Assembly: GCA_023251805.1 (NCBI GenBank)
Contig: JAHEYB010000010.1
Coordinates: 21,932-69,626, forward strand
DNA from: Bacteroidota bacterium
Lineage (GTDB): Bacteria; Bacteroidota; Bacteroidia; 2-12-FULL-35-15
Length of the DNA: 47,695 bases
Direction of reading: 5' to 3'
Shown: piece after piece, positions 2,317 to 46,443 of the stretch
How the letters are laid out: every line of letters starts with the position of its first letter
Position numbering within the stretch: the first letter of the stretch is position 1
The notes under the pieces: model-generated
Seen by the model: only the letters and a program-made list of their open reading frames with translations
Told to the model about the DNA's origin: nothing
Databases searched by the model: none
Program-made: the position numbers and the translations under genes

Positions 2317-2370
2317 AAAAATCCCCCTTCCATCGCTATTGCAAACGCTATCCCCCTTTTGCAAAGGGGG
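2317..2370. repeat. CCCCCTT/AAGGGGG palindromic repeat
   Basis: A C-run at 2322 is followed by a perfect stem, 2352-2359 pairing with 2363-2370 (CCCCCTTT/AAAGGGGG). The same type of element occurs at 3023, 13758 and 34699 and in a longer form inside atpG. It fills most of the gap between the T9SS cargo gene and the CvpA gene. Confidence 0.7.
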
Positions 2371-2398
2371 AATTGCCATACAATTAACCTTAGAGTAA

Positions 2399-3010
2399 AT
2401 GAACTTTATAGACATTATTATTTGCATTCCTTTGGTGTGGGGCCTTTACAAAGGTTTCACAAAAGGACTTATCATTGAAGCGGCTACAATTGTGGCTTTT
2501 GGCTTAGGTGTTTGGGGTGGAATTCATTTTTCAGATTATTTCGCAAGCAAGCTTTCTACTTGGTTTGACTGGCAATCACCTTATTTGCCTGTCATTTCTT
2601 TTGCACTTACTTTCCTTATCATTATTGCTTTTGTTTTTCTTGTTGCCAAGACGATTCAAAAGATGGTAGATGGTGTTGCACTAAGTGCAATCAATAAAAT
2701 TGGTGGCGCCATTGCAGGAACTTTAAAGTTTGCCTTGATACTGAGTGTGGTGATTTTTGTAATGGATGCAATCGAAGAAAGTTATCCGATGGTTTCCTTC
2801 AAAACAAAAGAAGAATCATTGCTCTATCGCCCGATTGGCAAAATAGCGCCTACCTTGATTCCTGCGCTTAATAAAAGTAAAGTCGCTGAGTTGATGCCGA
2901 AGGCGGAAGATGCAAAAATAAGTATTGAAATAAATCCTGATGATTTAAAAAAGCTGCCTCCAGTTGAGGTTGATGTGAAATTGAAGGACAAATCTCCGCA
3001 AGGAAGATAA
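2399..3010 (+). CDS. CvpA family membrane protein
   Basis: The 203-residue product starts MNFIDIIICIPLVWGLYKGF and has about four hydrophobic segments (roughly residues 3-20, 28-45, 62-83 and 100-120), followed by a polar, charged C-terminal tail. The opening D-I-x-x-x-x-x-x-x-G-x-x-K-G pattern is characteristic of CvpA (colicin V production) proteins, inner-membrane proteins of poorly defined molecular function. The start is preceded by AGAGTAA. The C-terminal part is rich in Lys, Asp and Pro and is probably cytoplasmic. It is convergent with the ATP synthase operon; a hairpin with runs on both sides lies between them. The family call is fairly sure; function is not known from sequence. Confidence 0.82.
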   Translation: MNFIDIIICIPLVWGLYKGFTKGLIIEAATIVAFGLGVWGGIHFSDYFASKLSTWFDWQSPYLPVISFALTFLIIIAFVFLVAKTIQKMVDGVALSAINKIGGAIAGTLKFALILSVVIFVMDAIEESYPMVSFKTKEESLLYRPIGKIAPTLIPALNKSKVAELMPKAEDAKISIEINPDDLKKLPPVEVDVKLKDKSPQGR

Positions 3011-3013
3011 ATC

Positions 3014-3040
3014 ATCCCCCTGCCCCCTTCAAAGGGGGAC
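3014..3040. repeat. CCCCCTT/AAGGGGG palindromic repeat
   Basis: The stem is CCCCCTT (3023-3029) pairing with AAGGGGG (3032-3038), preceded by a second C-run at 3015. It begins just after the CvpA stop codon and belongs to the same family as the element at 2317-2370. Confidence 0.7.
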
Positions 3041-3127: not shown

Positions 3128-4066
3128 TTATCCAGCCAACGCTTCTGCTCCACCCACGATTTCTAAGATTTCGTTTGTGATAGCCGCTTGACGCGCTTTG
3201 TTGTACGTTAATTTCAATTCTTTAATTAATGATCCTGCGTTATCAGTTGCTTTGTGCATAGATGTCATACGTGCTCCGTGTTCTGCTGCGTGTGAATCCA
3301 ATAATGCTTTGAACAATTGTGTTTTTAATGAACGAGGAATTAAATCGGCAACGATAAATTCTTTGCTTGGTTCAAAAATATATTCTCCGACCCCACCCGA
3401 CCTCCCCGAAGGGGAGGAGTTAGTCCCAACATTGGCCTGTGCGCTGTTCTCCCTTCCCTTTGGGGAGGGCTGGGGAGGGGCGACAGGAAGGTATTGTTCA
3501 GTAGTAGTAATTTGTACTGCAGCATTTTTAAATTGATTATAGATTAATTCTACTTTATCAAATTGTCCATCAGCAAATACTTGCATAATTTTTTCTGCAA
3601 CAGGCGCAACATTTACAAAAGTTAAGCTATCGTACAATTCATTTAATCCGCGAGGCATATCCGAACCAATGATTCCGTATTCTGTTTTCTTGAAAAAGTC
3701 ATTTGCTTTTTTTCCGATACACAACACACTTACATTGTGTCCTTTGTAGTCTTCACGAGCTAGTTTGCTAGCTGCTTTCAAAACGTTTGCATTAAATCCT
3801 CCACACAATCCACGGTTAGAAGTGATCACGACTAACAATACATTTTTAATCGGACGTTGTTTTGAATATTGTCCATCTGAACTATCCAAACTAGCACTTA
3901 AGTTTTCAAGAATTTCTTTTAGCTTACTTGCATACGGGCGCATTTGAGTAATTGCGTCCTGTGCTCTACGCAACTTAGCAGCACTCACCATTTTCATAGC
4001 GCTTGTGATTTGTTGTGTTGAACTTACAGATACAATTCGGTTACGAACCTCTTTTAAATTTGCCAT
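3128..4066 (-). CDS. atpG: ATP synthase F1 subunit gamma, with in-frame palindromic insert
   Basis: This is the central rotating shaft of F1 at the cytoplasmic face of the inner membrane. The N-terminus MANLKEVRNRIVSVSSTQQI and the C-terminus with ALLDSHAAEHGARMTSM and NEILEIVGGAEALAG are clear gamma signatures, forming the coiled coil that turns inside the alpha3beta3 ring. The product is 312 residues; bacterial gamma is usually about 285-295. The excess lies at residues about 196-228, a low-complexity stretch rich in Pro, Ser and Gly. It is encoded by a GC-rich double palindrome (3383-3481) that interrupts the usual link between the EQYLP and YIFEPSKE blocks. Reading frame and flanking motifs are intact, so I read it as a functional gene carrying a tolerated insertion. 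It is the last gene of the operon, 103 nt after atpA. Confidence 0.97.
   Translation of the reverse strand: MANLKEVRNRIVSVSSTQQITSAMKMVSAAKLRRAQDAITQMRPYASKLKEILENLSASLDSSDGQYSKQRPIKNVLLVVITSNRGLCGGFNANVLKAASKLAREDYKGHNVSVLCIGKKANDFFKKTEYGIIGSDMPRGLNELYDSLTFVNVAPVAEKIMQVFADGQFDKVELIYNQFKNAAVQITTTEQYLPVAPPQPSPKGRENSAQANVGTNSSPSGRSGGVGEYIFEPSKEFIVADLIPRSLKTQLFKALLDSHAAEHGARMTSMHKATDNAGSLIKELKLTYNKARQAAITNEILEIVGGAEALAG
3383..3481. repeat. GC-rich palindromic element inserted in frame in atpG
   Basis: The segment contains CCTCCCC (3401-3407) pairing with GGGGAGG (3411-3417), and a near-perfect pair CCCTTCCC (3451-3458) with GGGGAGGG (3462-3469). Its G/C runs contrast sharply with the AT-rich gene around it. 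It is 99 nt as delimited, a multiple of three, and encodes Pro/Ser/Gly-rich residues with no stop. Confidence 0.8.
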
Positions 4067-13662: not shown

Positions 13663-13682
13663 CCTGCCTACCGGCAGGCAGG
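13663..13682. repeat. LPxGRQ-type palindromic repeat, intergenic
   Basis: CCTGCC (13663-13668) pairs with GGCAGG (13673-13678). The full unit is CCTGCCTACCGGCAGGCAGG. In one reverse frame such a unit encodes the peptide LPxGRQ. Short GCAGAT direct repeats flank it on the left (13624-13652). Confidence 0.75.
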
Positions 13683-13753
13683 CGCAGATTTTTATGATTG
13701 TTATGATAAAAAATGATTATTAAAAATTTGAAATAATATGGTTTAAACTGATG

Positions 13754-13788
13754 CATTCCCCCTTGGAGAAGGGGGTTAGGGGGATTGA
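13754..13788. repeat. CCCCCTT/AAGGGGG palindromic repeat
   Basis: Stem CCCCCTT (13758-13764) with AAGGGGG (13769-13775), followed by TTAGGGGGATTGA. Same family as at 2317, 3014, 34247 and 34692. Confidence 0.7.
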
Positions 13789-13830
13789 CTCATGAAACGG
13801 TAGCGCTGAAGGAATACTTTATAATATTTA

Positions 13831-19790: not shown

Positions 19791-19799
19791 TTTCGAAGC

Positions 19800-19846
19800 G
19801 CCTGCCTGCCGGTAGGTAGGTCATTGCGACCCCGAGACTTCGGGGG
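19800..19846. repeat. Compound palindromic repeat after the aldehyde dehydrogenase gene
   Basis: An LPxGRQ-type unit (CCTGCC 19805-19810 and GGTAGG 19811-19816, with a second GTAGG) is joined to ATTGCGA and a hairpin CCCCGA/TCGGGG at about 19830-19845. Two dispersed repeat types are placed side by side before the terminator. Confidence 0.6.
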
Positions 19847-28133: not shown

Positions 28134-28496
28134 ATGAAAAAATTTCTCTCTCTTGTTTTTATTCTTTTCATCTTCCTCTTTTCAAATGAAGCAAAAGCAC
28201 AAAAGCTAACACCACCACAACAGCAACAGCTTGGCACGTTGTACAAAAGCAAAAAGGTGGTTTATTTTAAGTTTCGTGTTAACTCAATGCAAGAAGTTCA
28301 GCAAATGGCAAAAATTATTTCTGTAGATAAAGTAAAAGGGGTAGAAGTTGCAGCACATGCTACAAAAGAGCAGTTTACAAAGTTTTTGCCTTTTAATTAT
28401 AAGTATACGGTAACTGCAGGGGGCAGCGCAGTTAAACCTGCCCGTCCGGCAGGCGGGAAGAAGGCGCCTGCAAAAAAGGTAGTTAAGAAAAAATAA
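28134..28496 (+). CDS. Small secreted protein with Lys-rich tail carrying a palindromic insert
   Basis: The 120-residue product has a signal peptide (MKKFLSLVFILFIFLFSNEA, cleaved near KAQK), a compact middle of about 60 residues (KVVYFKFRVNSMQEVQQMAK...) and a basic tail of PARPAGGKKAPAKKVVKKK. The tail includes an LPxGRQ-type palindrome at 28437-28453, read in a frame that gives PARPAGG. The tail resembles nucleic-acid-binding or histone-like tails, but with a signal peptide this is more likely an envelope-binding region. No family recognised. It is convergent with the XRE gene, 5 nt away. Confidence 0.7.
   Translation: MKKFLSLVFILFIFLFSNEAKAQKLTPPQQQQLGTLYKSKKVVYFKFRVNSMQEVQQMAKIISVDKVKGVEVAAHATKEQFTKFLPFNYKYTVTAGGSAVKPARPAGGKKAPAKKVVKKK
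28437..28457. repeat. Palindromic repeat inside the 28134-28496 coding sequence
   Basis: CCTGCC (28437-28442) pairs with GGCAGG (28448-28453), followed by CGGG. Same family as 13663, 19800 and 32279, here within a gene and in frame. Confidence 0.7.
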
Positions 28497-40842: not shown

Positions 40843-43800
40843 ATGAAACGATTTTTACATTTGTTTACCGCCATACTTGTGCTGCTTTTTTCTATCGCAT
40901 CTTTCACTGCAACAGGCTCAGGTCCGGGATGGACAACCAAATACGAGCATACCAAGTGCTTCATTGAAAACAAGGGACAATTTCAGCTGCCAAATTCAAA
41001 AATGCAAGTTGAATATGCCTATGACGCAGCATCAACCAGAATCTATTTCACTAAAACAGGTTTAACGTATAGTTTTCTAAAGGTTTGGAAAGAGGAGGAA
41101 GAAGAGGGCGAAAGAGAAAAAGATATTAAAAAAGAGCACTTTCAGGATGTTAGAACATTGGAAGAATGGAAAAAGAAAGAGGCCGAAGAACACAAAACTC
41201 AATTTATTTCGGATTATGTTTCCGTAGAATGGGAAAATTCAAACCCTAATGTTGAGATAGTTGCTGAAAACAAAGTTCCAAGTTATTTCAGTTACACCTT
41301 CAAAGATGAAACCGGCAAAAAAACAAACGAAAATTTTTTGGCGGGATACGAAAAAATCACTTACAAAAATCTTTACCCAAACATTGATGTTGAGTATGTT
41401 TTTCATCCTTCAGAAGGGATAAAATATTCCATCATTCTTCATCCGGGGGCAGACCCATCGCTAATAAAAATGAAATACGATGATTCAAAAAAATTATCTA
41501 TTGACGATGGGAATTTAAATGTTGCTACTGCGCTTGGAAAAATTATTGACCACGCCCCAATTACTTTTTATGATGGCAACATGCCAACCGTTATTAAATC
41601 GAAATTTGTAAAATCAGGCAATCAAGTTTCTTTTGAATTGGATCCTTATGATAATACAAAAACAATTATTATTGACCCTTGGGTGGTAACACCTGCATTT
41701 GCCACAAACTGGGATTGTGTTTGGGAATGTGAGAAAGATGGCGTTGGGAACGTTTATATAATTGGAGGCGTAACCCCATTACAATTATTAAAATACAGCT
41801 CAGCTGGAGCTCTTCAGTGGACATACAATACTCCATACGACACATCCAGCTGGTTAGGAACATTTGCAACCGACAATATTGGGAACTCTTATGTTACACA
41901 AGGGTCAATAGCTGCAATCCAAAAAGTAAGTACTGTTGGCGCATTGATTTGGGATAACCCTAGTCCTGGGGGGCTTTTTGCAAGTACAGAATTTTGGAAC
42001 ATTGCATTTAATTGTGACCAAAGCCAATTGGTAATTGGCGGAACAGGCGGATTCTTGCCCCCTCTTCCTTATGTGTATAATGTGGACGTTGCTACAGGAA
42101 ACATGACTGCCAGCTTGCAGGTTACCGGTGGTGCTCTATTTCCTACTCAAGAGGTACGAGCAATTACAGCATGTGGAAATGGTAAATTTTATTGGCTTTC
42201 TCATGATTCTATAGGCTTTTTTAATCAAAATTTTTCTTTCTGTCCAACCGGAAGCAGCTCAGCAAGATATCACAAAACAAATGGGTATAGCTTTGGATAT
42301 AAGTGTGAAAATTGGAGATATAACAATACAGGTATTAATGCTATTCGTGCGAATTCCAATTTCGTATATACGCACAGAGGTAGCATTGTAGATAAGCGTT
42401 CGTTAACAACAGCAAACGTTATCACATCTGCCGCAATTGCAGGGGGAACATTTTCTGGAAGCCAAGTTAGAAATACAGGGATTGATATTGATGCTTGCGG
42501 AAACGTTTATGTGGGCTCACAAAGTTCCGTTGTTAAATACGATGCCAACCTTGTTGTTTTAGCAACATACCCTACCTCCTTCAACGTGTATGATGTTCAC
42601 GTTTCAACAGGAGGAGAAATTATTGCTTGCGGAAGTACAGGAACTTCAGGTACTGCAATACGAACAGGCTACATTCAACAAATCACTGCAGGTGCATGCG
42701 CTACCATTGCGCTTACGTGTTGCGATGCAACAATTTGTGCGCCAGCAACTATGTGTGTGAGTGCTGCTGCTGTTACTTTACAAGCTGCAACGCCTGGTGG
42801 AACCTGGAGCGGAACAGGTGTAAATGCTGCTGGTGTATTTAATCCGGCTGTATCGGGTGTTGGTACATTTACCATTACTTATACGTTGGCTTGTGGTTCA
42901 GATGCCGTATCAATAATCGTTTCACCTTGTACGGCATTGGTTCTTTGTCAGAGTCCAGGTAACGTTGCTACTGTTTCAGGTGGAACGGGTCCTTACCAAT
43001 GGCAAAGTTCTTCAACAACAACTCCTTGTATTGCTGGTATTGGTTTTTGCGGTGGTCCATTTACAGTTGTTGGTCCTCCTGTGACTACTTGGACAACCTT
43101 TTTCACAGGCCCTACTGCTACGCTTCCGGGAACATATCCCATTCAAATTGTTGATGGAAGTGGCACCATCTATACGATTACAAATGCTGCCGCATATGCT
43201 GCTTTGCCTCCTTGTTCAGGTTGTCCTTCTTTAACAGCTAACATAACTGCACAAGTTAACGTTGCTTGTTTTGGTGCATCCACAGGAAGTTTTAACGCTT
43301 CTACAACTGGCGGTGCTACACCTTGGGACTATACCTTAATGCTTGGAGCTACCACAATTGCTACATTTACAAATGTTGCAGGAACACAAAGTTTCACCGG
43401 ATTAGCTGCAGGAACTTATACCTTAAATATTTTAGATAACAATGGGTGCCCGGGAACGGCTACTATTACTATCACTCAGCCTGCTGGTCCAACTACAACG
43501 GCAAATGCCGGACCGAATCAAACGGTTTGCGGAACAACAGCAACACTTGCTGGAAATACCGCCACTATTGGCACAGGGGCTTGGTCGTTGGTGAGTGGTG
43601 CCGGAACAATTACCAGTTCTACACTTCCTAATTCGGGAGTAACAGGATTAGGAGTTGGGGCCAACGTATTTATGTGGACCATCTCAAATCCTCCTTGTCC
43701 TTCTACAACTAGCACAGTTACTATAACCGGTGTTGCTACTCCTACAGTTGCAAATGCAGGCCCCAATCAAACCGTTTGTGGAACAACTGCCACACTTGCG

Positions 43801-46443
43801 GGAAATACTGCTACTGCGGGAACAGGAACATGGACATTGGTAAGTGGAGCCGGAACAATTACAACCCCTTCTTCACCAACATCAGGAATAACAGGATTGG
43901 GAGTTGGGGCTAACGTATTTCAATGGTCAATTGCAAATGCGCCTTGTCCTCCATCAACTTCAACAGTTACTATAACTGGCGTTGCAGCGCCTACAACAGC
44001 TGCTGCCGGTCCTAATCAAACAGTTTGTGGAACAACAGCTACTCTTGCTGGAAATACTGCTACTACAGGAACCGGTACATGGACATTGGTAAGTGGTGCT
44101 GGAACGATAACTACACCTTCATCGCCAACATCTGGAATAACCGCATTGGGCGTTGGACCAAACGTATTTCAATGGTCAATCACAAATGCACCTTGCCCTG
44201 CATCAACTTCAACAGTGACAATAACTGGTGTGGCTACTCCAACAACCGCTTCTGCCGGACCGAACCAAACATTGTGTAGCACAACTTTTACAATGGCAGG
44301 AAACACACCAACTGTAGGAACAGGAACATGGACATTGGTAAGTGGTGCTGGAACAATTACAACTCCAGGTTCAGCAACAACAACTATTACATCGGTAGGA
44401 GCCGGAGCAAACGTATTTATGTGGACGATTTCAAATCCGCCTTGTCCAAATTCAACTAGCACAGTAACCCTTACAAATACAGGCGGACCAACGACATCTG
44501 TTGCCGGTCCACCACAATCTGTTTGTTCCACAACTGCAACTTTAGCAGGAAATACACCTACAGTCGGAACGGGATTATGGACATTGGTAAGTGGTGCTGG
44601 AACAATCGCAACACCTACTTCTCCTACATCCGGATTAACAGGACTGGGGGTGGGGCCAAATGTTTTTATGTGGACGATTTCAAATCCGCCTTGTACACCT
44701 TCTACATCGACCGTTACAATTACTGGCGTTGCCGCTCCTACAACTTCTAATGCAGGTCCAACACAAGTTGGTTGCAGCTCAAGTTTCACAATGGCTGGAA
44801 ACACAGCAACTATTGGAACAGGAACGTGGACATTGGTAAGTGGCGCTGGAACAATCACGACAGCGGGCTCACCAACAACAACAATTACAGGAGTTGGGCT
44901 TGGAGCAAACGTGTTTATGTGGACGATTGACAATGCTCCTTGTCCTTCCAGTACAGATACCGTTACTTTAATTAATACAGGCGGACCAACAACATCTGTT
45001 GCAGGAACAAATCAAACCGTTTGTTCCACAACAGCTACATTGGCCGGAAACACACCAACAGTTGGAACAGGATTGTGGACATTGGTAAGTGGAGGTGGAA
45101 CAATTACAACACCATCTTCTCCAACATCGGGGGTAACAGGATTAGGTGTAGGACCAAACGTGTTTATGTGGACCATTTCAAATCCGCCTTGTACACCATC
45201 AACATCAACAGTTACAATTACAGGAGTTGCCGCTCCTACAGTGGCTGCAGCAGGGCCAAACCAAACCATTTGTAGCAATAGCACTACACTTGCAGGAAAT
45301 ACACCAACAACGGGAACAGGAACGTGGACATTGGTGAGTGGCGCAGGAACAATTACAACACCTTCCTCCCCAACATCCGGAGTTACAGGATTAGGGGTAG
45401 GAGCAAACGTGTTTATGTGGACGATTTCAAATCCACCTTGTCCGAATTCAACCAGCACAGTAACAATCACCAATACCGGTGGACCAAGCATTACTACTAC
45501 ATCACAAACAAATGTGGATTGTAACGGAAATACAACGGGTGCCGCAACCGTTGCAGGTTCAGGTGGAGCGGGCTCTTATACATATGCGTGGACAGGTGGA
45601 GCAGGAACAAGTGCAAGCGCAACAGGATTAGCAGCCGGAACATATACGGCAACTGTTACAGATGGAGCAGGATGTTCCAGCACAACAATTGTTACAATTA
45701 CAGAGCCTACGGCTGTATCGGGGGTAGTTAGTACAACAAACGCAACTTGCGGTTTAAGTGATGGCTCTGCTTCTGTTGCAGGGTCAGGAGGAACAGGTTC
45801 TTTAAATTATGTGTGGACTCCGGGCGGGGCAACAACCTCTTCAATAACAGGAATTTCTTCGGGCTTATATTCTGTTGCAATAACTGATTCATTAGGATGC
45901 GTAAGTTCGGCTTCCGGCACTGTTGGTTCTGTTGGGGGGCCTGCAGTAAATGCCGGGGCCGGAAGTACGATTATTTCGGGAGGAACAGCTGTTTTAACCG
46001 GAACAGGAAGTCCGGGAGTTAGTTATAGCTGGTCGCCTTCTTCTACAGTTAGTTGCGATACGTGTGCCACAACCGTTGCTTCACCAACACAAACAACCAC
46101 TTATACGCTTACAGTAACCATAAATGGTTGTACATCATCTGATACTGTTACTGTTTTTGTTGAGATTGAATGTGGAGAATTATTTGTTCCAAATGTTTTC
46201 TCACCTAATGGTGATGGCGCAAATGATGAACTTAAAGTTTATGGAAATTGTATTACCAATTTTGAGTTTGTGATTTTTGATCGTTGGGGACAAAAAGTAT
46301 TTGAAATAACCGATCCTGCTATTTCTTGGGATGGAAGATTTAATGGAAAAATGATGGATGCAGCTGTTTTTGTTTACTATCTGAAAGGAACCGTAAAAGG
46401 AGTAGATGTATCGAAACATGGAAATATCACATTGATAAAATAA
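40843..46443 (+). CDS. Giant SprB-like adhesin with CHU_C C-terminal domain
   Basis: The 1866-residue product has a signal peptide (ends near SIASFTATGS). Residues about 35-280 match the DUF7948-type N-terminal domain (FIENKGQF, then YKNLYPNIDVEYVF and LHPGADPSLIKMKYDD). A charged insert (WKEEEEEGEREKDIKKEH) lies in it near residue 86. Residues about 285-620 form a propeller. After Cys-rich and SprB-type units come eight tandem repeats of 83-84 residues (residues 882-1546), then two SprB repeats, an Ig-like unit, and a CHU_C domain (LFVPNVFSPNGDGANDELKV). This is a type B T9SS cargo. The PorP/SprF gene is 19 nt downstream, the typical cargo-partner pair. Confidence 0.92.
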   Translation: MKRFLHLFTAILVLLFSIASFTATGSGPGWTTKYEHTKCFIENKGQFQLPNSKMQVEYAYDAASTRIYFTKTGLTYSFLKVWKEEEEEGEREKDIKKEHFQDVRTLEEWKKKEAEEHKTQFISDYVSVEWENSNPNVEIVAENKVPSYFSYTFKDETGKKTNENFLAGYEKITYKNLYPNIDVEYVFHPSEGIKYSIILHPGADPSLIKMKYDDSKKLSIDDGNLNVATALGKIIDHAPITFYDGNMPTVIKSKFVKSGNQVSFELDPYDNTKTIIIDPWVVTPAFATNWDCVWECEKDGVGNVYIIGGVTPLQLLKYSSAGALQWTYNTPYDTSSWLGTFATDNIGNSYVTQGSIAAIQKVSTVGALIWDNPSPGGLFASTEFWNIAFNCDQSQLVIGGTGGFLPPLPYVYNVDVATGNMTASLQVTGGALFPTQEVRAITACGNGKFYWLSHDSIGFFNQNFSFCPTGSSSARYHKTNGYSFGYKCENWRYNNTGINAIRANSNFVYTHRGSIVDKRSLTTANVITSAAIAGGTFSGSQVRNTGIDIDACGNVYVGSQSSVVKYDANLVVLATYPTSFNVYDVHVSTGGEIIACGSTGTSGTAIRTGYIQQITAGACATIALTCCDATICAPATMCVSAAAVTLQAATPGGTWSGTGVNAAGVFNPAVSGVGTFTITYTLACGSDAVSIIVSPCTALVLCQSPGNVATVSGGTGPYQWQSSSTTTPCIAGIGFCGGPFTVVGPPVTTWTTFFTGPTATLPGTYPIQIVDGSGTIYTITNAAAYAALPPCSGCPSLTANITAQVNVACFGASTGSFNASTTGGATPWDYTLMLGATTIATFTNVAGTQSFTGLAAGTYTLNILDNNGCPGTATITITQPAGPTTTANAGPNQTVCGTTATLAGNTATIGTGAWSLVSGAGTITSSTLPNSGVTGLGVGANVFMWTISNPPCPSTTSTVTITGVATPTVANAGPNQTVCGTTATLAGNTATAGTGTWTLVSGAGTITTPSSPTSGITGLGVGANVFQWSIANAPCPPSTSTVTITGVAAPTTAAAGPNQTVCGTTATLAGNTATTGTGTWTLVSGAGTITTPSSPTSGITALGVGPNVFQWSITNAPCPASTSTVTITGVATPTTASAGPNQTLCSTTFTMAGNTPTVGTGTWTLVSGAGTITTPGSATTTITSVGAGANVFMWTISNPPCPNSTSTVTLTNTGGPTTSVAGPPQSVCSTTATLAGNTPTVGTGLWTLVSGAGTIATPTSPTSGLTGLGVGPNVFMWTISNPPCTPSTSTVTITGVAAPTTSNAGPTQVGCSSSFTMAGNTATIGTGTWTLVSGAGTITTAGSPTTTITGVGLGANVFMWTIDNAPCPSSTDTVTLINTGGPTTSVAGTNQTVCSTTATLAGNTPTVGTGLWTLVSGGGTITTPSSPTSGVTGLGVGPNVFMWTISNPPCTPSTSTVTITGVAAPTVAAAGPNQTICSNSTTLAGNTPTTGTGTWTLVSGAGTITTPSSPTSGVTGLGVGANVFMWTISNPPCPNSTSTVTITNTGGPSITTTSQTNVDCNGNTTGAATVAGSGGAGSYTYAWTGGAGTSASATGLAAGTYTATVTDGAGCSSTTIVTITEPTAVSGVVSTTNATCGLSDGSASVAGSGGTGSLNYVWTPGGATTSSITGISSGLYSVAITDSLGCVSSASGTVGSVGGPAVNAGAGSTIISGGTAVLTGTGSPGVSYSWSPSSTVSCDTCATTVASPTQTTTYTLTVTINGCTSSDTVTVFVEIECGELFVPNVFSPNGDGANDELKVYGNCITNFEFVIFDRWGQKVFEITDPAISWDGRFNGKMMDAAVFVYYLKGTVKGVDVSKHGNITLIK
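43486..45480 (+). repeat. Eight tandem 249-bp repeats in the adhesin gene
   Basis: Units start at 43486 (252 bp), 43738, 43987, 44236, 44485, 44734, 44983 and 45232 (249 bp each). Each encodes the pattern AGPNQTVCxTTATLAGNT, TGTWTLVSGAGTI and NPPCP. Units 5 and 7 share 76 of 83 residues. Units 4 and 6 share TMAGN and a TTTIT segment, showing a two-unit period in the middle of the array. Confidence 0.95.

Follow-up and report, generated by a model that had tools for sequence, protein, structure and literature searches.

A palindromic element in frame within the ATP synthase gamma gene of a Bacteroidota bacterium, and its resemblance to elements that carry a DUF559 nuclease

INTRODUCTION

Short palindromic repeats are known to occur inside genes. 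In Rickettsia, RPEs are described as small palindromic repeats of 105-146 bp that lie in frame in conserved protein genes (PMC2229807). REP, BIME and REPIN sequences, which bear GTAG or CGTC tags and are associated with RAYT, consist of a tag plus a hairpin, often form inverted pairs and are sometimes located inside genes, as described for several genomes (PMC3733652). Repeats of another kind are reported for Borg elements, in which amino-acid tandem repeats are encoded by DNA repeats that create new disordered protein segments (PMC9879509).

Here we analyse a palindromic insert in the atpG gene of an uncultured Bacteroidota bacterium, located in a stretch of 47,695 nucleotides that we refer to as the window. 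A first-pass annotation of the window had likened the insert to the protein-coding palindromes of Rickettsia, and the likeness is apt with respect to in-frame entry, the existence of empty relatives and the number of genes affected. In-frame palindromic elements are a known kind of sequence, and we treat the atpG insert as a variant of them. A search of the open-access literature returned no description of the repeat units reported below (units A and B), nor of DUF559 as an in-frame element.

RESULTS

Structure of the atpG insert

The gene for the ATP synthase gamma subunit, atpG (3128..4066, minus strand), encodes 312 amino acids, of which residues 3-310 match PF00231, and is the only gamma match in its genome (G000). 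Alignment with relatives and a translation check identify codons 196-226 (3389..3481, minus strand) as an element-derived segment, which stands in place of an 11-residue loop. The segment reads APPQPSPKGRENSAQANVGTNSSPSGRSGGV, contains no cysteines, and is bounded by the conserved blocks EQYLP and YIFEP. Its exact left border is uncertain, because the loops of some relatives that lack the element also start with APPQ.

The GC-rich double palindrome that had been noticed between two conserved gamma blocks is real, and can be resolved into two inverted units, in each of which a C-rich tag precedes a GC-rich hairpin. Unit B (3451..3480, minus strand) has one mismatch to the 30-nt B consensus of the family and recurs in other genes and genomes. 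Unit A (3391..3417, plus strand, with its hairpin at 3401-3417) is inverted relative to B, and the two are separated by a 33-nt spacer (3418..3450, minus strand) in which no DUF559 remnant is recognisable. End to end the units and spacer measure 90 nt, which fits an RPE-like palindromic repeat of about 100 bp. Inspected by eye, neither the atpG site nor the metH site described below has a clear target-site duplication; the replaced loop is itself variable.

In an AlphaFold2 model of the gamma protein (mean pLDDT 70.7), residues 198-233 have pLDDT values below 50 and connect the last strand to the C-terminal helix. These residues are a flexible loop that is predicted to be disordered. The element, built of two inverted REP-like units of 27-30 nt plus a spacer, lies in this loop.

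The gamma gene in relatives

The nearest gammas (P0003-P0005, 95-96% identical in the alignment) and those of genomes G003 and G035 have intact flanks and no insert; they are 292 residues long and have an 11-residue loop, e.g., QAPPATEKKQS. It follows that the net gain is 20 residues, with a 31-residue segment replacing 11, and not about 33 as had first been estimated, although the insertion itself stands. The distance between EQYLP and YIFEP is 14-17 residues in 26 of 28 gammas of the same genus, the others being G000 with 34 and G005 with 29. The G005 loop (L022) is non-palindromic and is perhaps a decayed insert.

A related insert is present at the same site in gammas P0002, P0036, P0050, P0121 and P0122, and in shortened form in P0024; the loops of P0007, P0067 and P0070 may be decayed or partial copies of the element. 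In a tree of 121 gammas calculated with the loop left out, the seven rows labelled as insert-bearing need five changes, two of them forced by well-supported branches, and P0001 falls within a supported set alongside 46 gammas that have no insert label. This scatter implies multiple arrivals, or repeated loss, or transfer between lineages.

A region search with the gamma insert returned five gammas among seven candidates; the search is a short-word method, from which absence elsewhere cannot be read. A pattern for the right junction of the atpG insert, which requires an intact right end and so misses decayed copies, matched in G000 only among 395 genomes of the class. In genome contigs, where records of the own genome were possibly left out, its sole match (L175) is not a gamma. 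No atpG carrying a full DUF559 element was found among the gamma genes examined.

A different kind of insert was observed in the atpG of G050 (L297, G050:C18:2500-6000), where a frame of 428 amino acids has about 114 extra residues in frame upstream of IYNQFKN. By eye, this insert resembles a biotinyl/lipoyl-type stretch and a coiled coil; its site differs from that in the window, and it has no recognisable units.

Palindromes elsewhere in the window

The window contains eight GC-rich hairpins, compared with 0-3 in ten block shuffles. The first-pass annotation had placed relatives of the atpG palindrome in the window's spacers, which is correct to the extent that cousin palindromes of other subfamilies are present, but a second copy of unit A or B was not found there, even with 9 mismatches in 29 allowed. 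Copies of the atpG-element subfamily are instead located on other contigs and in other genomes. The cousins, to which no strand is assigned and which lie outside long genes, are an intergenic palindrome downstream of atpG (3016..3038), a hairpin upstream of ORF 2399-3010 (2351..2371), and an intergenic palindrome (13758..13790) that is nearly identical to the ends of a free-standing DUF559 gene of G000 (L257).

Two other repeat types were seen in the window. A further palindrome family, CCTGCCTGCCGGCAGGCAGG-like, is located at 13663-13685, 19798-19821 and 28437-28453, and positions 43465-45507, within ORF 40843-46443 (plus strand, 1866 aa), consist of eight 249-nt tandem repeats that are 65-81% alike to a reference copy.

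Short elements across the genus

When the 99 bases first noticed in atpG (3383..3481) were compared with 36 genomes of the same genus, matches were found in 25. The 107 loci that were read contain 115 unit clusters, spread over 106 of the loci. A strict in-frame test demands that, on a single strand, each side of the cluster be open for 60 codons or more. By this test 39 clusters keep the frame and one is disrupting; the remaining 75 are not flanked by two long runs, and among them are intergenic copies and others close to gene starts or contig ends. If frame were kept by chance in one third of cases, the probability of at least 39 in frame among 40 would be 7e-18. The 39:1 excess reflects selection against disruption, not aimed insertion. 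The earlier proposal of a palindromic element in frame within an essential gene is thus upheld, and extends to many other genes.

The 39 in-frame clusters are located in 36 ORFs. Pfam families were matched in 34 of these ORFs, and in 20 one and the same match spans an insert (tables read by eye). The hosts include gamma, a GDP-mannose 4,6-dehydratase-family protein, LeuRS, Cas1, urocanase, hydantoinase B, phosphoglycerate mutase (in three genomes, at one loop) and a class I tRNA synthetase that we read as ValRS. The genes that hold the three other matches in G000 were assigned by eye: rfbB, methylmalonyl-CoA mutase and a methyltransferase gene, which is matched at its start. Only rfbB passed the strict test. 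In genome G013, the RluD gene contains a two-unit element that resembles that of atpG.

Units are apparently also present within, or at the end of, N termini that resemble signal peptides (L042, L047, L051, L106, L122, L140, L146 and L148). Several of these belong to PorP/SprF-like proteins, with PorP_SprF matched in L042 and the rest assigned by eye.

DUF559 nucleases between inverted units

In three host ORFs, for methionine synthase (L112), acetyl-CoA synthetase (L139) and an aldehyde dehydrogenase-MaoC fusion (L049), the units adjoin a DUF559 domain that is in frame with the host. More generally, DUF559 (PF04480) is embedded between similar inverted units in methionine synthase, LeuRS, IleRS, acetyl-CoA synthetase and PaaZ. 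The domain occurs in 31 of the 36 genus genomes, at 67 places (the places counted by hand), and 60 of the 67 loci were read. We define a copy as embedded when there are at least 100 codons upstream and at least 80 codons downstream in the same frame, which is the case for 21 copies.

Unit-like matches (mismatch limits of 9 for A and 10 for B) are present on both sides in inverted order for 18/21 embedded copies versus 0/39 other DUF559 loci; among the latter, 12 are matched on a single side and one holds a pair whose order is reversed. Eight of the 21 embedded copies have six or fewer mismatches on each side, and the A/B-type pairs around the nuclease in L213 and L216 have as few as 1-4.

The flanks were also scored by comparing the left flank with the reverse complement of the right. 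In 518 controls with matching spacing, the 99th percentile of this score is 26 (maximum 34); that value is exceeded by 20 of 21 embedded copies and by 34 of 38 other DUF559 copies, one further copy being without sequence. Three observations weigh against this result. The direct-orientation score exceeds the inverted one at 7 of 59 DUF559 loci. In a cross-locus control the 99th percentile rises to 58, because units are alike from one locus to another. Nine of 19 Y1_Tnp loci, which have other palindromes, are likewise above 26. In alignments of 23 loci, the palindromes of free-standing DUF559 genes share this layout but belong to several other subfamilies. Genome G000, which is 80% complete, has two DUF559 matches, both free-standing, with ends that consist of other palindromes or in which none was detected; no cognate nuclease for units A and B was seen in it.

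A profile built from 14 DUF559 domains matches PDB 3hrl (1.6e-31) and 3r3p, a 'mobile intron protein' (8e-07) that we take to be I-Bth0305I. Over the 24 rows of embedded or C-terminal-fusion copies, the motif columns hold E in 23/24, D in 23/24, E in 24/24, D in 24/24 and H in 23/24. DUF559 is reported to occur in Vsr-like PD-(D/E)XK endonucleases (PMC12907096). No intein family was matched, at E values up to 0.001, in the three DUF559-bearing ORFs that were scanned (L049, L112 and L139). A model of the acetyl-CoA synthetase is weak (mean pLDDT 52.5), with the DUF559 stretch scoring above its flanks, and is left out of the evidence.

Sites, states and distribution of the elements

Several host sites occur both with and without an element. 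The activation domain of metH (PF02965) was matched in 34 genomes, being uninterrupted in 24 and split at about profile position 116-119 in 10. Nine of the split genes contain DUF559; in the tenth (G009), ends of the same type enclose a DUF559 that is partly deleted. A loop of SpoIIE, which extends from DIV(A/S)GDFYW to DCTGHGVPGA, occurs in empty, short-element and full-nuclease states. It is empty, with 6 aa, in L063, L082, L215 (twice) and L255; it holds a short element, with 37-39 aa, in L045, L053, L061, L110 and L127; and it holds DUF559, with 152-153 aa, in P0189 and P0236, which come from other sources. The loop of L107 has 34 aa and no recognised unit. In LeuRS, five insertions within the genus are located in the NWIGKS-VFTTRPDT stretch, as are those of P0171 from Salegentibacter salegens and of P0182. 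The DUF559 site in iPGM P0165 differs from the site of the short elements in the genus.

An unrooted tree of 60 DUF559 rows, based on 108 columns, which are few for so many rows, places the 24 embedded or C-terminal-fusion rows on one side of a branch (95/90). The LeuRS copies form a single group (100/99), as do the Acs copies (98/90). At the metH activation site there are two distinct groups of copies, an indication that this site was reached twice. In a gamma tree for 28 genomes of the same genus and two others, which leaves out genomes that lack a usable gamma locus, the metH insert (seven rows) needs six changes, five of them forced by well-supported branches; the LeuRS and Acs inserts (three rows each) need three changes each, all forced.

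A region search with embedded DUF559 returned 1680 proteins of 1834 candidates, and the hosts among the 120 listed include LeuRS, MetH, MetRS, IleRS and Acs. Judging by Pfam accession, further hosts among the same 120 are presumably RecJ, TGT, CinA and CoA transferase. In 109 genomes of the class, DUF559 was found at E values up to 1e-15 in 56, and 39 matches in 29 genomes are within open frames of at least 500 aa (counted by hand).

DISCUSSION

Origin of the atpG insert and a possible mechanism

The explanation that we favour, and consider likely, places the atpG insert, as a nonautonomous and MITE-like form, in a family of mobile elements that are unspliced, in frame and linked to a nuclease. 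By comparison of sequences, we find insertion relative to relatives, preservation of frame, inverted ends around DUF559, short and full forms at one site, a deleted form, site-specific lineages, and patchiness. Because units of this kind also form the ends of larger in-frame DUF559 elements, which the first-pass annotation had not reported, the family resembles a nuclease-linked mobile element more than it does a free palindrome.

We infer that DUF559 mobilises the elements, and a plausible scenario is as follows. The long form would be translated as an extra domain of its host enzyme, and the nuclease may cut an empty allele or hairpin DNA, after which repair would copy the element in. Short forms may have originated by internal deletion, for which the metH copy of G009 is a candidate intermediate, and would probably have been copied in trans. 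Copies within genes would survive only if the frame was kept and the Pro/Ser/Gly-rich peptide was tolerated in a loop. Three findings weaken this account: in G000, at 80% completeness, no nuclease cognate to units A and B was seen; a clear target-site duplication was not evident by eye; and none of the atpG genes found holds the full element.

Alternative explanations

There are other possible scenarios. The one that survives best, although we think it unlikely, is that the palindrome is an independent, RPE-like repeat that spreads by template switching, gene conversion or another route, and that DUF559 elements merely share similar hairpins and a preference for tolerant loops. It is consistent with the far greater number of short elements than of A/B-flanked DUF559 copies in the genus, with short spacers that hold no recognisable nuclease remnants, and with a shortage of insert-tolerant loops, such that shared sites could reflect selection. 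It does not readily account, however, for the internally deleted nuclease element in metH of G009, for the occurrence of all three states at one SpoIIE loop, or for the close match of the A/B-type pairs around DUF559 in L213 and L216.

A second scenario is that the units are REPs moved by a Y1 tyrosine transposase, with DUF559 as a passenger. RAYT-like genes with palindromes of their own are indeed present: Y1_Tnp is matched in 29 of the 36 genus genomes, and 9 of 19 tested loci have an inverted-flank score above 26. Genes between inverted pairs of other palindromes are those of L077, L078, L082, L084, L085, L087, L088 and L090. However, 29 of 30 Y1_Tnp loci have no A or B units within the flanks examined, and the exception (L081) has a single weak B-like match with 8 mismatches. 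The palindromes that flank Y1 genes differ in sequence, e.g., GCCCCGGAGGGGC and TCCCGTAGGGA. Since the palindromes found with Y1 transposases in this genus are different ones, a RAYT origin is disfavoured, and we consider it quite improbable.

Two further scenarios concern the loop itself. Gradual low-complexity expansion, or convergence on a Pro/Ser/Gly-rich loop, would require no insertion, and would be in keeping with the variability of the loop among relatives and with the unrelated APPQ starts, by which the left end may be partly native. This is very doubtful given that unit B lies within one nucleotide in 30 of a consensus that recurs in other genes and genomes, and that close relatives have only 14 residues between the flanking blocks. 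Alternatively, the loop could be regulatory and kept for its function, since chloroplast and cyanobacterial gamma carry a regulatory insert with a redox role. The alignment of the chloroplast chain 6fkf_g covers query residues 2-197 and is interrupted after them, so that the extra segment of this chain is in the same region. A regulatory origin is nonetheless highly improbable, because the window's insert has no cysteine, is missing in the closest relatives, is predicted to be disordered, and has the same peptide as is found in unrelated proteins.

Finally, an assembly or binning artefact is conceivable for a draft genome of 80 contigs that is 80% complete, but it is scarcely credible when P0001 is found on two contigs, when gammas P0002, P0036, P0050, P0121 and P0122 have a related insert at the same site, and when such events occur in many genomes, with embedded DUF559 in the LeuRS of named species such as Salegentibacter salegens.

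Implications

If the nuclease-linked explanation is correct, in-frame mobile palindromes extend beyond Rickettsia and a handful of REP-rich genomes, and they gain a candidate enzyme, DUF559. The elements would also show how selfish DNA can add new loops, and entire inserted domains, to core enzymes. Because named flavobacteria have nuclease-bearing LeuRS genes, the idea is testable in culture. A practical implication for annotation is that the label 'DUF559 domain-containing protein' can hide a LeuRS.

Comparison with known systems

The atpG element is like an RPE, by description, in being small, palindromic, in frame in a conserved gene and absent from homologues. It differs in that the host belongs to the Bacteroidia and that units of the same type surround a nuclease gene embedded in host enzymes. 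With the REP/RAYT system it shares a tag plus a hairpin, the arrangement as an inverted pair and a location inside genes; however, units A and B lack a GTAG or CGTC tag, are not found at the ends of Y1 genes in the genus (apart from the weak match in L081), and are linked to DUF559.

The insert is similar to a MITE as well, being short and nonautonomous and having inverted ends in common with a larger coding element, as seen for 18 of the 21 embedded DUF559 copies and for the deleted metH form in G009. No clear target-site duplication is evident by eye, at a site where the loop varies. Unlike the case for MITEs, the larger element also belongs to the host protein, being translated in its frame.

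Parallels with homing endonucleases are the use of the same sites in conserved genes, site-specific nuclease lineages, patchy hosts and, by profile match, a Vsr-like fold family. In contrast to the homing endonucleases of inteins and introns, no splicing domain was matched in the three ORFs scanned, the nuclease stays in the frame of its host, the ends are REP-like hairpins, and there are nonautonomous short forms. Borg repeats and the atpG-type elements both make new disordered segments; Borg repeats are tandem and are not known to be linked to a nuclease, whereas the elements described here are dispersed.

Whether these differences amount to a new class is a separate question from the status of the atpG insert, which we treat as a variant of in-frame palindromic elements, and we judge the arguments for and against a new class to be evenly balanced. 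Such a class would consist of unspliced, in-frame, homing-like mobile elements with REP-like hairpin ends and a Vsr-type nuclease, which would form an extra domain of essential enzymes across the Bacteroidia and would shed nonautonomous palindromes that write disordered segments into proteins such as gamma.
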